A stretch of 27,559 bases of DNA, from positions 1 through 27,559 of IMG/VR virus record IMGVR_UViG_3300037961_000952. One strand, written 5' to 3'. The stretch is from a virus. Of the stretch, positions 7,924-22,891 are shown piece by piece. The notes beneath the pieces were generated by a model that saw nothing but the letters and a program-made list of their open reading frames with translations, did not search any database and was not told where the DNA came from. The position numbers and the translations under genes were made by a program. Every line of letters begins with the position of its first letter. Within the stretch, counting starts at the first letter, position 1.

Positions 7924-8535
7924 ATGGCTTTTCAAATAAAGAAAGAACTTCACTTAAATACAGGTATTTACTTGAAGTTGTTAGATGATCCAACAAATGC
8001 AAAAATGGAAAATGATAGATTTGGTAATACTAAATATACCTTACCGATTGAAATGGCGGGACATGATATTACTGATGGTTCTGGTGTTAAATGGTTTAAG
8101 AACGCTGAAGGGCAATGGATAGAACTTAAACTAGGTAAACAGACTGATTTCGAGTTTAGTGATGCACTTTATAAAAAGTTAGCAGGGAATCCATCTGGTA
8201 GCACAGTACAAGTAATGTTAAAAGAAATGGAAGGTAAACAAGGAAAATACGCAGGATGGACTGTAATGCCTATGAGTAGTGGTAGCACAGAATCATCAAA
8301 TAAGCCTCAAAAAGCAGTCTCTAACGCTAGTTTAGGTATTACATGGGGTATGTGTATCAATAACGCTACACAGATAGCTATAAAGCAAGGTATTGATGGA
8401 ATGAATTTAGGTGATCAGATTGAACAAATAGCTAAACAACTAATGGATGTAGCTGTTAATGGACTTGTAAGATGGGAGCAAGGTGAACACGAAAAAGATC
8501 AGAATGATAAACCTAATGATGATCTACCCTTTTAA
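7924..8535 (+). CDS. Probable single-stranded DNA-binding protein (SSB-like)
   Basis: 203 residues. The C-terminus is a hydrophilic acidic linker ending in DDLPF, the form of the SSB tip (DDDIPF in E. coli) that recruits replication and repair enzymes. The N-terminal half (about 1-115) is beta-rich, with a KYTLPIEMAGHDI stretch and WTVMPM near its end, compatible with an OB fold. The segment at about 138-175 (WGMCINNATQIAIKQGID) is helical and not typical of bacterial SSB. It lies upstream of an HNH protein and an initiator, fitting a replication group. The start at ATG 7924 follows AGGAGAG. The SSB call is inference from tip and context. Confidence 0.62.
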   Translation: MAFQIKKELHLNTGIYLKLLDDPTNAKMENDRFGNTKYTLPIEMAGHDITDGSGVKWFKNAEGQWIELKLGKQTDFEFSDALYKKLAGNPSGSTVQVMLKEMEGKQGKYAGWTVMPMSSGSTESSNKPQKAVSNASLGITWGMCINNATQIAIKQGIDGMNLGDQIEQIAKQLMDVAVNGLVRWEQGEHEKDQNDKPNDDLPF

Positions 8536-8885
8536 TGAAAAAAGAACTCATTAAAAAATTAGATGATGCTTGGTCTGATAGGATTAGGCAATATGGCAGG
8601 TGTGAGGTATGTGGAAAGGATAGTAGGCTAAATGCACACCACTTTTATTCTAGGGCAATTAGAGTAGTAAGGTGGGATATAGATAATGGATTTTGTCTAT
8701 GTGTGGGGTGTCATGTATTTAGTTCAAAATTCTCTGCACACTTAACACCTGCTGAGTTCGTAGAATGGGCAATAGATCATAGAGGTCAGAAGTGGTATGA
8801 TGACCTTAAAATAAAAAAGAATACACCACAAAAAATTATAGATGCAGATTTTGATCTAATTATGGGGAGTTTATTAGGTGAGTAA
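8535..8885 (+). CDS. HNH / NinG-Rap-like nuclease
   Basis: 116 residues, start overlapping the SSB-like stop (TAATG). A zinc-binding HNH core is visible: CEVCG at about 24-28, AHHFYSR at about 35-41, then WDIDNGFCLCVGCH at about 47-60. Two CxxC knuckles frame the AHH histidines, as in HNH nucleases and the NinG/Rap recombination proteins that process Holliday junctions or D-loops. Placement between SSB-like and initiator genes supports a recombination or replication role over a homing nuclease. A C-terminal tail of about 40 residues (AEFVEWAIDHRGQKWYDDLK) is helical. Specificity cannot be read from the sequence. Confidence 0.72.
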   Translation: MKKELIKKLDDAWSDRIRQYGRCEVCGKDSRLNAHHFYSRAIRVVRWDIDNGFCLCVGCHVFSSKFSAHLTPAEFVEWAIDHRGQKWYDDLKIKKNTPQKIIDADFDLIMGSLLGE

Positions 8886-9735
8886 TGGTTGGATAAAACT
8901 GCATCGTAAGATACAAGATAACCCTATCTGGGATAAACCAGAGCAATTAAAAGCATGGCTTGATCTACTACTAATGGCTACACATAAAGAGCGTACAAAG
9001 TTTATAAAAGGTGAAGAAGTCATATTACAGCAGGGTGAAATAGATGCCTCATTTAGATACCTATCTAAGCGTTGGAATTGGAGTATAGGTAAGGTTCAAA
9101 GGTTTATAAACCTGTTAAAAAAGTGTTCAATGATTGAAGTAAAAACGGATACAGGTCAAAATGTTGTAAGTATTTGTAATTACGCAACTTACCAGATTGA
9201 AGAAAATCAAAACGATACACTAACGGGTACAGCACCGATACAGAACCGATACAAAAACAAGAATGATAAGAAAGAAAGAAATAATATATATGCTCAAGAG
9301 TTTGAAAAACTTTGGATATTAGTACCTAAGAAAGTTAGTAAAAAGAAAGCCTATCAAAAGTATATACTCGCTGTTAAAAAGAAAGACCATGATGAGATTT
9401 ACACAGCTTTTAAAAACCAAGTTGATAATAATTGGAAGGATACTGATCCAAAGTTCACACCTGCCTTAGATGTGTGGTTAAATAATGAAAGATGGGATGA
9501 TGCTGTGATTAAACCTACAGTACAAACTGTTACTAAAAAGAAACAATTTAGATTACTGCCATCTGGAATGTATAAGGGATATTGTGGTAAATGTGCTGAT
9601 GCTATGTATTTAAAAGCAGATGAGTTTTATAAAAGCAGTCCTTGCTGTGGGGTTGAATTTGTACCAGAACAGCCAAAAGTTTACAAGGGTAAGGATTACA
9701 CAGAAGAAACACTTAATCAAATAATGGGGGGATAA
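8878..9735 (+). CDS. Phage replication initiator (O-like / DnaD-like)
   Basis: 285 residues from GTG 8878, with GGGGAG (8863-8868) as ribosome site and an 8-base overlap with the HNH gene. Residues 1-105 match the winged-helix N-terminal domain of phage replisome organisers (GWIKLHRKIQDNPIW, then FRYLSKRWNWSIGKVQRFIN). A polar linker (about 112-138) is encoded by the iteron-like repeats at 9211-9253. A helical middle part (EKLWILVPKKVSKKKAYQKY) follows. A Cys4-type zinc finger (CGKCADAMYLKADEFYKSSP, then CCG) lies near residues 240-262. It would bind the origin and load host replication proteins. No helicase or polymerase gene is seen in the window. Confidence 0.75.
   Translation: MSNGWIKLHRKIQDNPIWDKPEQLKAWLDLLLMATHKERTKFIKGEEVILQQGEIDASFRYLSKRWNWSIGKVQRFINLLKKCSMIEVKTDTGQNVVSICNYATYQIEENQNDTLTGTAPIQNRYKNKNDKKERNNIYAQEFEKLWILVPKKVSKKKAYQKYILAVKKKDHDEIYTAFKNQVDNNWKDTDPKFTPALDVWLNNERWDDAVIKPTVQTVTKKKQFRLLPSGMYKGYCGKCADAMYLKADEFYKSSPCCGVEFVPEQPKVYKGKDYTEETLNQIMGG
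9211..9294 (+). other. Candidate replication origin inside the initiator gene
   Basis: Four imperfect units related to ACCGATACA end at 9219 (ACGATACA), 9231 (ACGGGTACA), 9242 and 9253 (both ACCGATACA), that is about every 11-12 bases, one helical turn. An AT-rich, purine-rich tract (about 9254-9294) follows. This is the plan of the lambda origin, which also lies inside its initiator gene. No test of function is possible here. Confidence 0.5.
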
Positions 9736-10358: not shown

Positions 10359-10652
10359 ATGAACAAAATAGAACCATGCGAAATGTGTGGCAGATACGAT
10401 GGAGATCATAAAGAAAGATGGGATATTAAAGAATTAGAGAATAATAAAATGAATCTCTTATTAGCAGGTATCTTATTCGCACAAGAGGCTACACATAGGC
10501 AAATAGAGCTATTTATGGCTAAATACTACATAGGTAGGGAATCAATTTCAGACATAGGCAGGGATTTTGGTATATCAAAACAAACAGTAGCAGAAACAAT
10601 AGATAGATCATGTGAAATTATAACTAAAATAATTAAAAGATTAAGTACCTGA
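10359..10652 (+). CDS. HTH transcription regulator, sigma-region-4-like
   Basis: 97 residues with AGAGG before ATG 10359. The C-terminal half carries a helix-turn-helix of the sigma-70 region 4 / LuxR type: ELFMAKYYIGRESISDIGRD, then FGISKQTVAETIDR. The N-terminus has one CxxC knuckle (EPCEMCGRYDGDHKERWD) that may bind zinc or a partner. It stands alone between two terminators, immediately before the head operon, the usual place of a late-gene activator (as with RinA/ArpU-type proteins). It could equally be a repressor of its own leader. Confidence 0.65.
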   Translation: MNKIEPCEMCGRYDGDHKERWDIKELENNKMNLLLAGILFAQEATHRQIELFMAKYYIGRESISDIGRDFGISKQTVAETIDRSCEIITKIIKRLST

Positions 10653-10901: not shown

Positions 10902-12089
10902 ATGAAAGATATTAATATTAAATATTATCCTGCCGATGATTTGGTAATGGCTGAATACAATCCACGACAGCTAACCAAAGACCAATATACACAACTAAAA
11001 GACTCTATTATGAGGTTTGGCTTAGTTGATCCCCTTATTGTAAATAAAAACAAAGAAAGAAAGAACATCCTAGTAGGTGGACACCAGAGACTACGCATAG
11101 CCAAAGAGATGGGTGTTGAATCTATACCATGTGTAGAGGTTGATCTTACTTTAGATCAAGAAAAAGAACTTAATATTAGATTAAATAAGAATGTTGGTGA
11201 ATGGGATTTTGATGCTTTGGCTAATTACTTTGATGTGGGGGAGCTTACAGAGTGGGGTTTTAGTAACGATGACTTACAATTTTATGAAGATGAGCCAAAA
11301 CAGGGATTGATTGATGATGATGAGATTCCAGAGGTAGAAGAGCCTATTACACAAGCAGGTGATCTCTGGATATTAGGAGAGCATCGTTTATTATGTGGGG
11401 ATGCAACAAAAAAAGAAGATGTTGATTTGTTAATGGATGGTAAAAAGGCTGATATGGTGTTTACTGATCCCCCTTATAATGTTAATTATGGAAATATTAA
11501 ACATCCAAAGTTCAAACAAAGAGAAATAGATAATGATTCAATGAGTTCTGAAGATTATAAAAGTTTTTGTAAAAACTTTATAAAATTAATTAAAGAAAAT
11601 ACTGAGGGATGTATTTATGTAAGTGGGGCTCAACATAAAGATGGTAGGATATTATTTACAGAATTAGATGAATTAGTTACTTGCAGTACTACAATTATAT
11701 GGGTTAAAGATTCTTTTACATTAGGCAGGGGTAAATACCACAATAGATATGAACCTATTTGGTTTGGTTGGTCAAAATCTGGTAGAAATTTTACAAATGA
11801 TAGAAAATTAGATAATGTTTGGAATTTTACAAGACCAAAATCATCCAAATTACATCCAACAATGAAACCTGTTGAATTAATTGTTAATGCTATAAATCAT
11901 GCCTCAAAAATAAATAATTCAGTTTTAGATGTATTTCTTGGTTCTGGATCAACCCTAATAGCTTGTGAGAAAACTAATCGTAAGTGTTATGGTATGGAGA
12001 TTGATCCACATTATTGTGATGTTATAGTAAAAAGGTGGGAGGAATTTAGTGGGAAGAAAGCAGAAAGAGTTGAAAGAGCAGAGAGTTGA
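10902..12089 (+). CDS. ParB-like domain fused to a DNA methyltransferase
   Basis: 395 residues. Residues about 1-90 form a ParB/Srx-like domain: YNPRQL, GLVDPLIVN, then ILVGGHQRLRIAKEMG. From about residue 150 an amino-methyltransferase follows with DPPY (motif IV) near 190 and the S-adenosylmethionine loop LDVFLGSGST near 345. This motif order (catalytic before SAM) is the beta class of N6-adenine or N4-cytosine enzymes. HPTMKPVELI is also characteristic of these. No restriction enzyme is next to it, so it is an orphan that may protect phage DNA or regulate packaging. Its 3' end overlaps the terminase small subunit. Confidence 0.88.
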   Translation: MKDINIKYYPADDLVMAEYNPRQLTKDQYTQLKDSIMRFGLVDPLIVNKNKERKNILVGGHQRLRIAKEMGVESIPCVEVDLTLDQEKELNIRLNKNVGEWDFDALANYFDVGELTEWGFSNDDLQFYEDEPKQGLIDDDEIPEVEEPITQAGDLWILGEHRLLCGDATKKEDVDLLMDGKKADMVFTDPPYNVNYGNIKHPKFKQREIDNDSMSSEDYKSFCKNFIKLIKENTEGCIYVSGAQHKDGRILFTELDELVTCSTTIIWVKDSFTLGRGKYHNRYEPIWFGWSKSGRNFTNDRKLDNVWNFTRPKSSKLHPTMKPVELIVNAINHASKINNSVLDVFLGSGSTLIACEKTNRKCYGMEIDPHYCDVIVKRWEEFSGKKAERVERAES

Positions 12090-21942: not shown

Positions 21943-22371
21943 ATGAGTGAAGAAGTAACAAACAGATGGTCAGATGACTATAGTGGTAGATGGTCGCACA
22001 GGGCATATATGATCGTGCCTGTAGCTGATATTGATTCAGCAGATGCACCTACAGACTCAAATACAGTAGCACAGATAAAAGCATGGATGGATAGCTATGG
22101 CTATGAATATACCTCAGATATGAGCAAATCAGAGCTATTAGGAGCTATCCCTGTATCTAATGCCTTTATAGCTAATGCAATACAATCAAGCAAAGAAACG
22201 CTTAGAAAGAACAACGGAGATGAGGGTGATAGTTCTAAAGCATTATTAAAGTTTCCTTGTGATAATGATGCAGACAATGATCCTGCCATGTTTAGCTCTT
22301 ATGATAAATACTCTCACGCACAGATAATGGATATTTTATCTGGTGATGAGTGGAGTTCATCTATTGAGTAA
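21943..22371 (+). CDS. Unknown protein with a HeH/LEM-like helix pair
   Basis: 142 acidic residues with AGAGGAAAA before ATG 21943. The segment IKAWMDSYGYEYTSDMSKSE, then LLGAI (about 45-69) matches the helix-extension-helix plan of HeH/LEM/SAP-type folds. The N-terminus has WSDDYSGRWSHRAYMIVPVA. The C-terminus has a Asp/Asn-rich stretch (FPCDNDADNDPAMFSSYDKY). It follows the adhesin by nine bases and may be an accessory to it, for example a chaperone or a fibre partner. Function is not known. Confidence 0.6.
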   Translation: MSEEVTNRWSDDYSGRWSHRAYMIVPVADIDSADAPTDSNTVAQIKAWMDSYGYEYTSDMSKSELLGAIPVSNAFIANAIQSSKETLRKNNGDEGDSSKALLKFPCDNDADNDPAMFSSYDKYSHAQIMDILSGDEWSSSIE

Positions 22372-22372
22372 T

Positions 22373-22891
22373 ATGTGCAGTTGTATTTATAATTGTATTT
22401 GCAGTAAAAAGGGTAATAGTCTTGCTGAGTTCGCAGTTACTATGGCTATCATGGCTACTTTGGCAACTACCTCTGCTCCTGCTTTTAGTCGTATCGGTGA
22501 GGGAGCTAAAGCTAAACAAACTAAGGCTAATCTGGAGAAAATAGTTAAAGCATCCCAGATGTGGTACAATCAACAGGTAGAAATAAATGGCATGGGAAAA
22601 TTCCCTTCACAGCCTCATAGAACAGTAAGCATAGGTGAGGTCAATGATTACAATAATAATCGCAGAATAGAGGTAAATGAGGTGTTAGAAGGTACTTATG
22701 TGCCTGTATTTAGTGATACTAGCTTTCTGCATTTATTTGATAATGACACAATCAGATCACCTTACCAAGATGGTAGATATTTATATGCTATTGTAGGGGG
22801 TTCTGGAACAGGGAACAATATAGTAAGTCCTATCTTTGTTGTAGTGGATCAAGAAAACCCAGAAGATTTTTATAAGTATTACAAGCCATGA
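22373..22891 (+). CDS. Type IV pilin / pseudopilin-like protein
   Basis: 172 residues from ATG 22373, two bases after the previous stop; GTG 22343 and ATG 22346 are in frame upstream. The leader is MCSCIYNCICSKKG, then NSLAEFAVTMAIMATLATTS. This is a class III signal: Gly before the cut, Glu at mature position 5 and an unbroken hydrophobic helix. A long helix follows (GAKAKQTKANLEKIVKASQM) and a beta-rich C-terminal part (YLYAIVGGSGTGNNIVSPIF), as in GspG-type pseudopilins. The host prepilin peptidase could process it. Four Cys in the leader are unusual. Roles may include interference with host pili or a virion/membrane function. Confidence 0.75.
   Translation: MCSCIYNCICSKKGNSLAEFAVTMAIMATLATTSAPAFSRIGEGAKAKQTKANLEKIVKASQMWYNQQVEINGMGKFPSQPHRTVSIGEVNDYNNNRRIEVNEVLEGTYVPVFSDTSFLHLFDNDTIRSPYQDGRYLYAIVGGSGTGNNIVSPIFVVVDQENPEDFYKYYKP

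Follow-up and report, generated by a model that had tools for sequence, protein, structure and literature searches.

The stretch of viral DNA analysed here, IMG/VR record IMGVR_UViG_3300037961_000952 (27,559 nt, hereafter the window), carries a gene for a DnaD-like replisome organizer, and within the codons of this initiator lie four putative iterons and an AT-rich tract (Table 1). A NinG/Rap-like HNH endonuclease gene (8535-8885; phrog_5034) overlaps the start of the initiator gene, and its 3' end lies in a flank common to the relative L007. Elsewhere, a ParB-like domain fused to an N6/N4 DNA methyltransferase (10902-12089; phrog_498, 4e-125) adjoins the terminase genes, and an ORF at 22343-22891 has, as read by eye, a type IV prepilin-like N-terminus, KGNSLAEFAVTMAIMATLATTSAPAF, which is unexpected in a phage late region.

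Table 1. Features of the initiator gene, in coordinates of the window.
Feature	Position	Strand	Basis or remark
Initiator gene, DnaD-like phage replisome organizer, 285 aa	8878..9735	+	phrog_2514, phrog_186 and SPP1 gp38 matches
N-terminal winged-helix DNA-binding domain (predicted), codons 4-106	8887..9195	+	AlphaFold2 pLDDT mostly 80-96; fold matches
Predicted disordered linker, codons 109-133	9202..9276	+	pLDDT below 50 (AlphaFold2)
Iteron 1 (putative), AACGATACA	9211..9219	+	codon phase 0, read as NDT
Iteron 2 (putative), ACGGGTACA, degenerate	9223..9231	+	codon phase 0, read as TGT
Iteron 3 (putative), ACCGATACA	9234..9242	+	codon phase 2, read as PIQ
Iteron 4 (putative), ACCGATACA	9245..9253	+	codon phase 1, read as NRY
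Candidate AT-rich duplex-unwinding element, least stable 40 bp of initiator gene	9252..9291	.	stability computed from sequence
C-terminal part of initiator	9286..9735	+	425/450 nt identical in L007; phrog_270/9327/9474 matches

Against PHROG, the initiator product matched two DnaD-like phage initiator families, phrog_2514 (E=3e-29) and phrog_186 (E=3e-21), the first of which is also matched by gp38 of phage SPP1 (1.8e-33). By tblastn, SPP1 gp38 and the window initiator are 41% identical over the N-terminus, and further matches were obtained with initiators of Listeria, Staphylococcus, Lactobacillus, Vibrio and Pseudoalteromonas phages. An earlier note, made from the DNA letters alone, had described an O-like gene built on the λ plan with different iterons. 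The layout stands, but the assignment to O does not: the product is DnaD/G38P-like, with no Pfam match to Phage_rep_O (the λ O family) at E<=1 and no O-like PHROG at E<=0.1. Nor did it match the RepA_N Pfam family at E<=1. The window initiator is homologous to SPP1 gp38 and has, by prediction, the N-terminal winged-helix domain by which G38P-type (DnaD-like) organizers are recognized.

The AlphaFold2 model (mean pLDDT 74.7, pTM 0.38) comprises a confident N-terminal winged helix, with the recognition helix predicted at about residues 70-82, followed by a linker and the C-terminal part. Compared with solved structures, the N-terminal fold resembles winged helices generally. RepA_N initiators (4pql, Z 8.5 over 94 residues with rmsd 5.8; 4pt7, 8.2; 5kbj, 7.4; alignment lengths 92-94 residues) are tied with CAP-type winged helices, Foldseek against the PDB returned generic winged helices only (best E 0.008), and a sequence search of solved structures gave no meaningful match. 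A perfect 14-nt palindrome, AGGTTTATAAACCT, lies within the codons of the DNA-binding domain at 9100-9113. The C-terminus carries, at 9560-9670 and 3' of an FEKLW..WLNNERW region, a zinc-ribbon-like motif (CxxC...CC) for which there was no Pfam match.

The earlier note had placed four imperfect units at about 11-12 base spacing in the linker part of the gene, followed by an AT-rich, purine-rich tract, and all of this is borne out. The four 9-bp units are spaced 12, 11 and 11 bp apart; three are good and the second is degenerate. The predicted disordered linker codons are the codons of the iterons together with most of the AT-rich ones. Tandem Repeats Finder reports period 11 at 9228-9253, and nowhere in the window is an 11-bp lag stronger than the self-match at 9222 (22/30). 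Measured against synonymous codon shuffles of the initiator gene, the array has p=0.003 at lag 11 and p=0.01 for the best of all lags from 7 to 25. No comparable lag-11 repeat occurs in the other window ORFs (32 ORFs tested; no other lag-11 p below 0.08), and the p=0.02 at lag 18 in the ORF at 10359-10652 is about what 32 tests should yield. No second array resembling SPP1 oriR was found elsewhere in the window. A look-alike unit, ACGGATACA, at 9145 is probably not part of the array, as it lies 66 bp upstream and is unchanged in the relative L006.

Directly 3' of the array, the tract at 9255-9294 is 80% A+T and 75% purine, and the candidate unwinding element is less stable than all but 1.3% of window positions. 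At the level of sequence, it answers to the adjacent AT-rich unwinding element that goes with a G38P-type organizer. One might imagine the tract as a TnnT array on the bottom strand, like the DnaD recognition element (PMC10201434). However, codon positions 1 and 2 are enriched in A, whose period is locked to the reading frame, so that K/N/D/E codon composition would suffice for such a pattern.

Alignment of relatives had been suggested in the earlier note as a check on synonymous sites, with conservation beyond coding need named beforehand as the point to be decided. In relatives L001-L005, the 105 codons of the DNA-binding domain differ from the window by 9-10 synonymous and no non-synonymous changes, and the 27 iteron and AT-rich codons by no synonymous and 0-2 non-synonymous ones. 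L028 has 16 synonymous and 11 non-synonymous differences in the domain and 0 and 7, respectively, in the iteron and AT-rich codons, so that six relatives together have no synonymous change in those 27 codons. The repeats are thus kept beyond what coding would demand. In L006, GATACA has become GACAC in all three well-matched units and the degenerate unit is altered too, with the spacing kept; these changes mostly alter amino acids, and the look-alike at 9145, outside the array, stays as it was. This is how binding sites, as the units are predicted to be, behave when they evolve in concert with their reader. L006 and L028 show that the array can drift. These alignments show the repeats and the predicted unstable tract to be constrained as DNA and not as protein.

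Comparison of relatives makes it unusually plain that the repeats have been exchanged jointly with the protein part expected to bind them. In L007 the upstream flank is common with the window and the C-terminus is 93% identical over the last 150 residues, whereas the DNA-binding domain is 38% identical to that of the window and is followed by a linker with GTGAACAACAA units at 11-12 bp in place of the window iterons. L008 has the same domain and linker as L007, and in both the C-terminus is near-identical to that of the window. A search with the L007 domain found genes whose domains are 45-98% identical to it and whose C-termini fall to as little as 7% identity. Indeed, GTGAACAACAA-type units are kept down to 45% domain identity while the C-termini fall to 7-40%; the GAACAAC linker units are still present in most of these genes and are drifting in L128 and L129. 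Several of L115-L127 carry longer GAACAAC arrays (3-5 copies) with CGAACAAC units interspersed, which suggests array expansion. In a Mantel test on 61 representatives, iteron similarity correlated with domain similarity (r=0.195, p=0.001; r=0.23 for the recognition region) and not with C-terminus similarity (r=0.025, p=0.2). Since GTGAACAACAA units persist with the domain across unrelated C-termini, it is the DNA-binding domain, not the C-terminus, that the putative iterons follow. Both the repeats and the unstable tract exist and are inherited with that domain. Because domain and iterons are adjacent, linkage contributes in part to this co-inheritance and is not fully separable from it.

We lean towards the view that, in phage initiators of this family, the winged helix travels with its iterons and melting tract as one exchangeable cassette of about 400 bp, such that origin specificity would change while the C-terminus, which probably recruits the helicase, stays. 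If so, nature has supplied DNA-binding domains already paired with their target sites, a set that could yield a recognition code. The paired exchange opens the recognition code of these initiators to direct testing.

The arrangement is not peculiar to the window. We took 61 diverse representatives below 75% identity and compared the 75 nt 3' of the domain with synonymous shuffles as the baseline. Excess self-match was found at lags 11, 12, 22 and 23 (t of 9.8, 4.9, 8.0 and 6.3), and |t| was at most 3.9 at all remaining lags. Linker repeats reached p<=0.05 in 50/61 genes and 11/61 missed it. The lowest-GC 36-mer of the gene lies 20-120 nt past the domain in 42/61 (8.7 expected), and the iteron zone is GC-richer than its gene in 54/61. 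Looking for repeats of 11-12 bp in the linker codons immediately 3' of the winged helix is a simple rule that finds candidate origins across a broad phage family.

Very probably, then, the feature is the theta-replication origin of this phage, located within the linker codons of its own initiator gene, which would narrow its probable position in this uncultured phage to about 85 bp. The proposal of the earlier note, that the initiator gene holds an origin with iterons and an AT-rich region, gains support from the synonymous constraint, the concerted change in L006 and the homology to SPP1 gene 38. GC skew around the site, which the note had also proposed, was computed but is uninformative, since it stays positive over almost all of the window and does not switch at the site. 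By homology we infer binding, melting, helicase recruitment and origin firing as follows. Several initiator molecules would bind the four iterons via their N-terminal winged helices, and the 11-12 bp spacing, about one helical turn, would stack them on one face of the DNA. The complex would then open the 40 bp of AT-rich DNA next to it, and on the strand so exposed the C-terminal domain would place the replicative helicase of the host or its loader. The C-terminal part is likely to recruit host helicase machinery. Because no DnaB-type helicase (PF03796) or DnaC/IstB ATPase (PF01695) was found in the window and four related records, which are possibly incomplete, the phage may rely on host replication proteins.

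The same binding evidence would look identical if the repeats were an operator through which the initiator represses or times its own operon, with replication starting elsewhere. Initiator sites can also regulate, and the array lies within a run of same-strand small genes. We consider this unlikely, however: about 335 bp of coding sequence precede the array, the least stable DNA of the gene comes directly after it, an order that recurs across the family, and equivalent repeats are the origin in SPP1, TP901-1 and Tuc2009. Less likely still is that the linker is simply a repetitive or low-complexity stretch of protein and the DNA repeat its by-product. The linker is indeed predicted to be disordered and polar, and poly-K/N/D/E codons alone give AT-rich DNA. 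Yet the units are read in all three codon phases and an 11-bp spacing is no multiple of three, so a protein repeat cannot explain the array; moreover, the array beats synonymous shuffles, and its changes are mainly non-synonymous while the DNA repeat is kept. This reading is already contradicted. Equally improbable is a recombination hot spot, in which the repeats would be a crossover point for swapping initiator domains and not a protein-binding array: the domain-plus-linker exchange in L007 and L008 would fit it, but the exchanging partners have no common units, the sequence they share starts 3' of the array, at about 9286, and it is the DNA-binding domain that the units track.

Read as an origin, the feature has its nearest model in SPP1 oriL, together with TP901-1 and Tuc2009, rather than in λ O. 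According to a published account (PMC6316719), SPP1 gene 38 contains oriL, where gp38 binds direct repeats and an AT-rich unwinding element is present, and initiation requires gp39 and gp40. In our own analysis, SPP1 gene 38 has an 11-bp array at the same place, in the linker codons. SPP1 and the window thus have in common a homologous N-terminal domain (41%), linker-codon direct repeats at 11-bp spacing and an adjacent AT-rich tract. They differ in the units, which in SPP1 are AAACGACA/AAAGACAC, and in the C-terminal domain, which in SPP1 is PF09524. SPP1 also has its own loader and helicase and a second origin, oriR, of which none was found here, within the scope of the searches given above. 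The replisome organizers of the lactococcal phages TP901-1 (ORF13) and Tuc2009 (Rep2009) bind a repeat-rich region in their own gene that serves as ori, as described in PMC8965321; the internal-ori plan is the same there, in different hosts.

The resemblance to λ O is one of layout, with iterons and an AT-rich tract inside the initiator gene in both, whereas the window gene is no member of the O family by sequence. The window units are 9 bp long at 11-12 bp spacing, and λ iterons are longer than that. In λ gene O, four iterons and an adjacent AT-rich region lie mid-gene (PMC7466680). RepA_N initiators offer a further parallel, with a fold-level resemblance no closer than that to CAP-type winged helices. 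The Rep boxes of plasmid pSK41 lie centrally in rep and are bound by the winged-helix N-terminus of its RepA_N initiator, and the pPR9 chimera has exchanged about 500 bp covering domain and origin while keeping its C-terminus (PMC5703833). The exchange seen here shows how a phage could acquire a new origin specificity through a single recombination event, as plasmid pPR9 is reported to have done. The feature is largely ordinary in kind, with a layout that SPP1, λ and other phages were known to have; of most interest is that domain and iterons are exchanged jointly.
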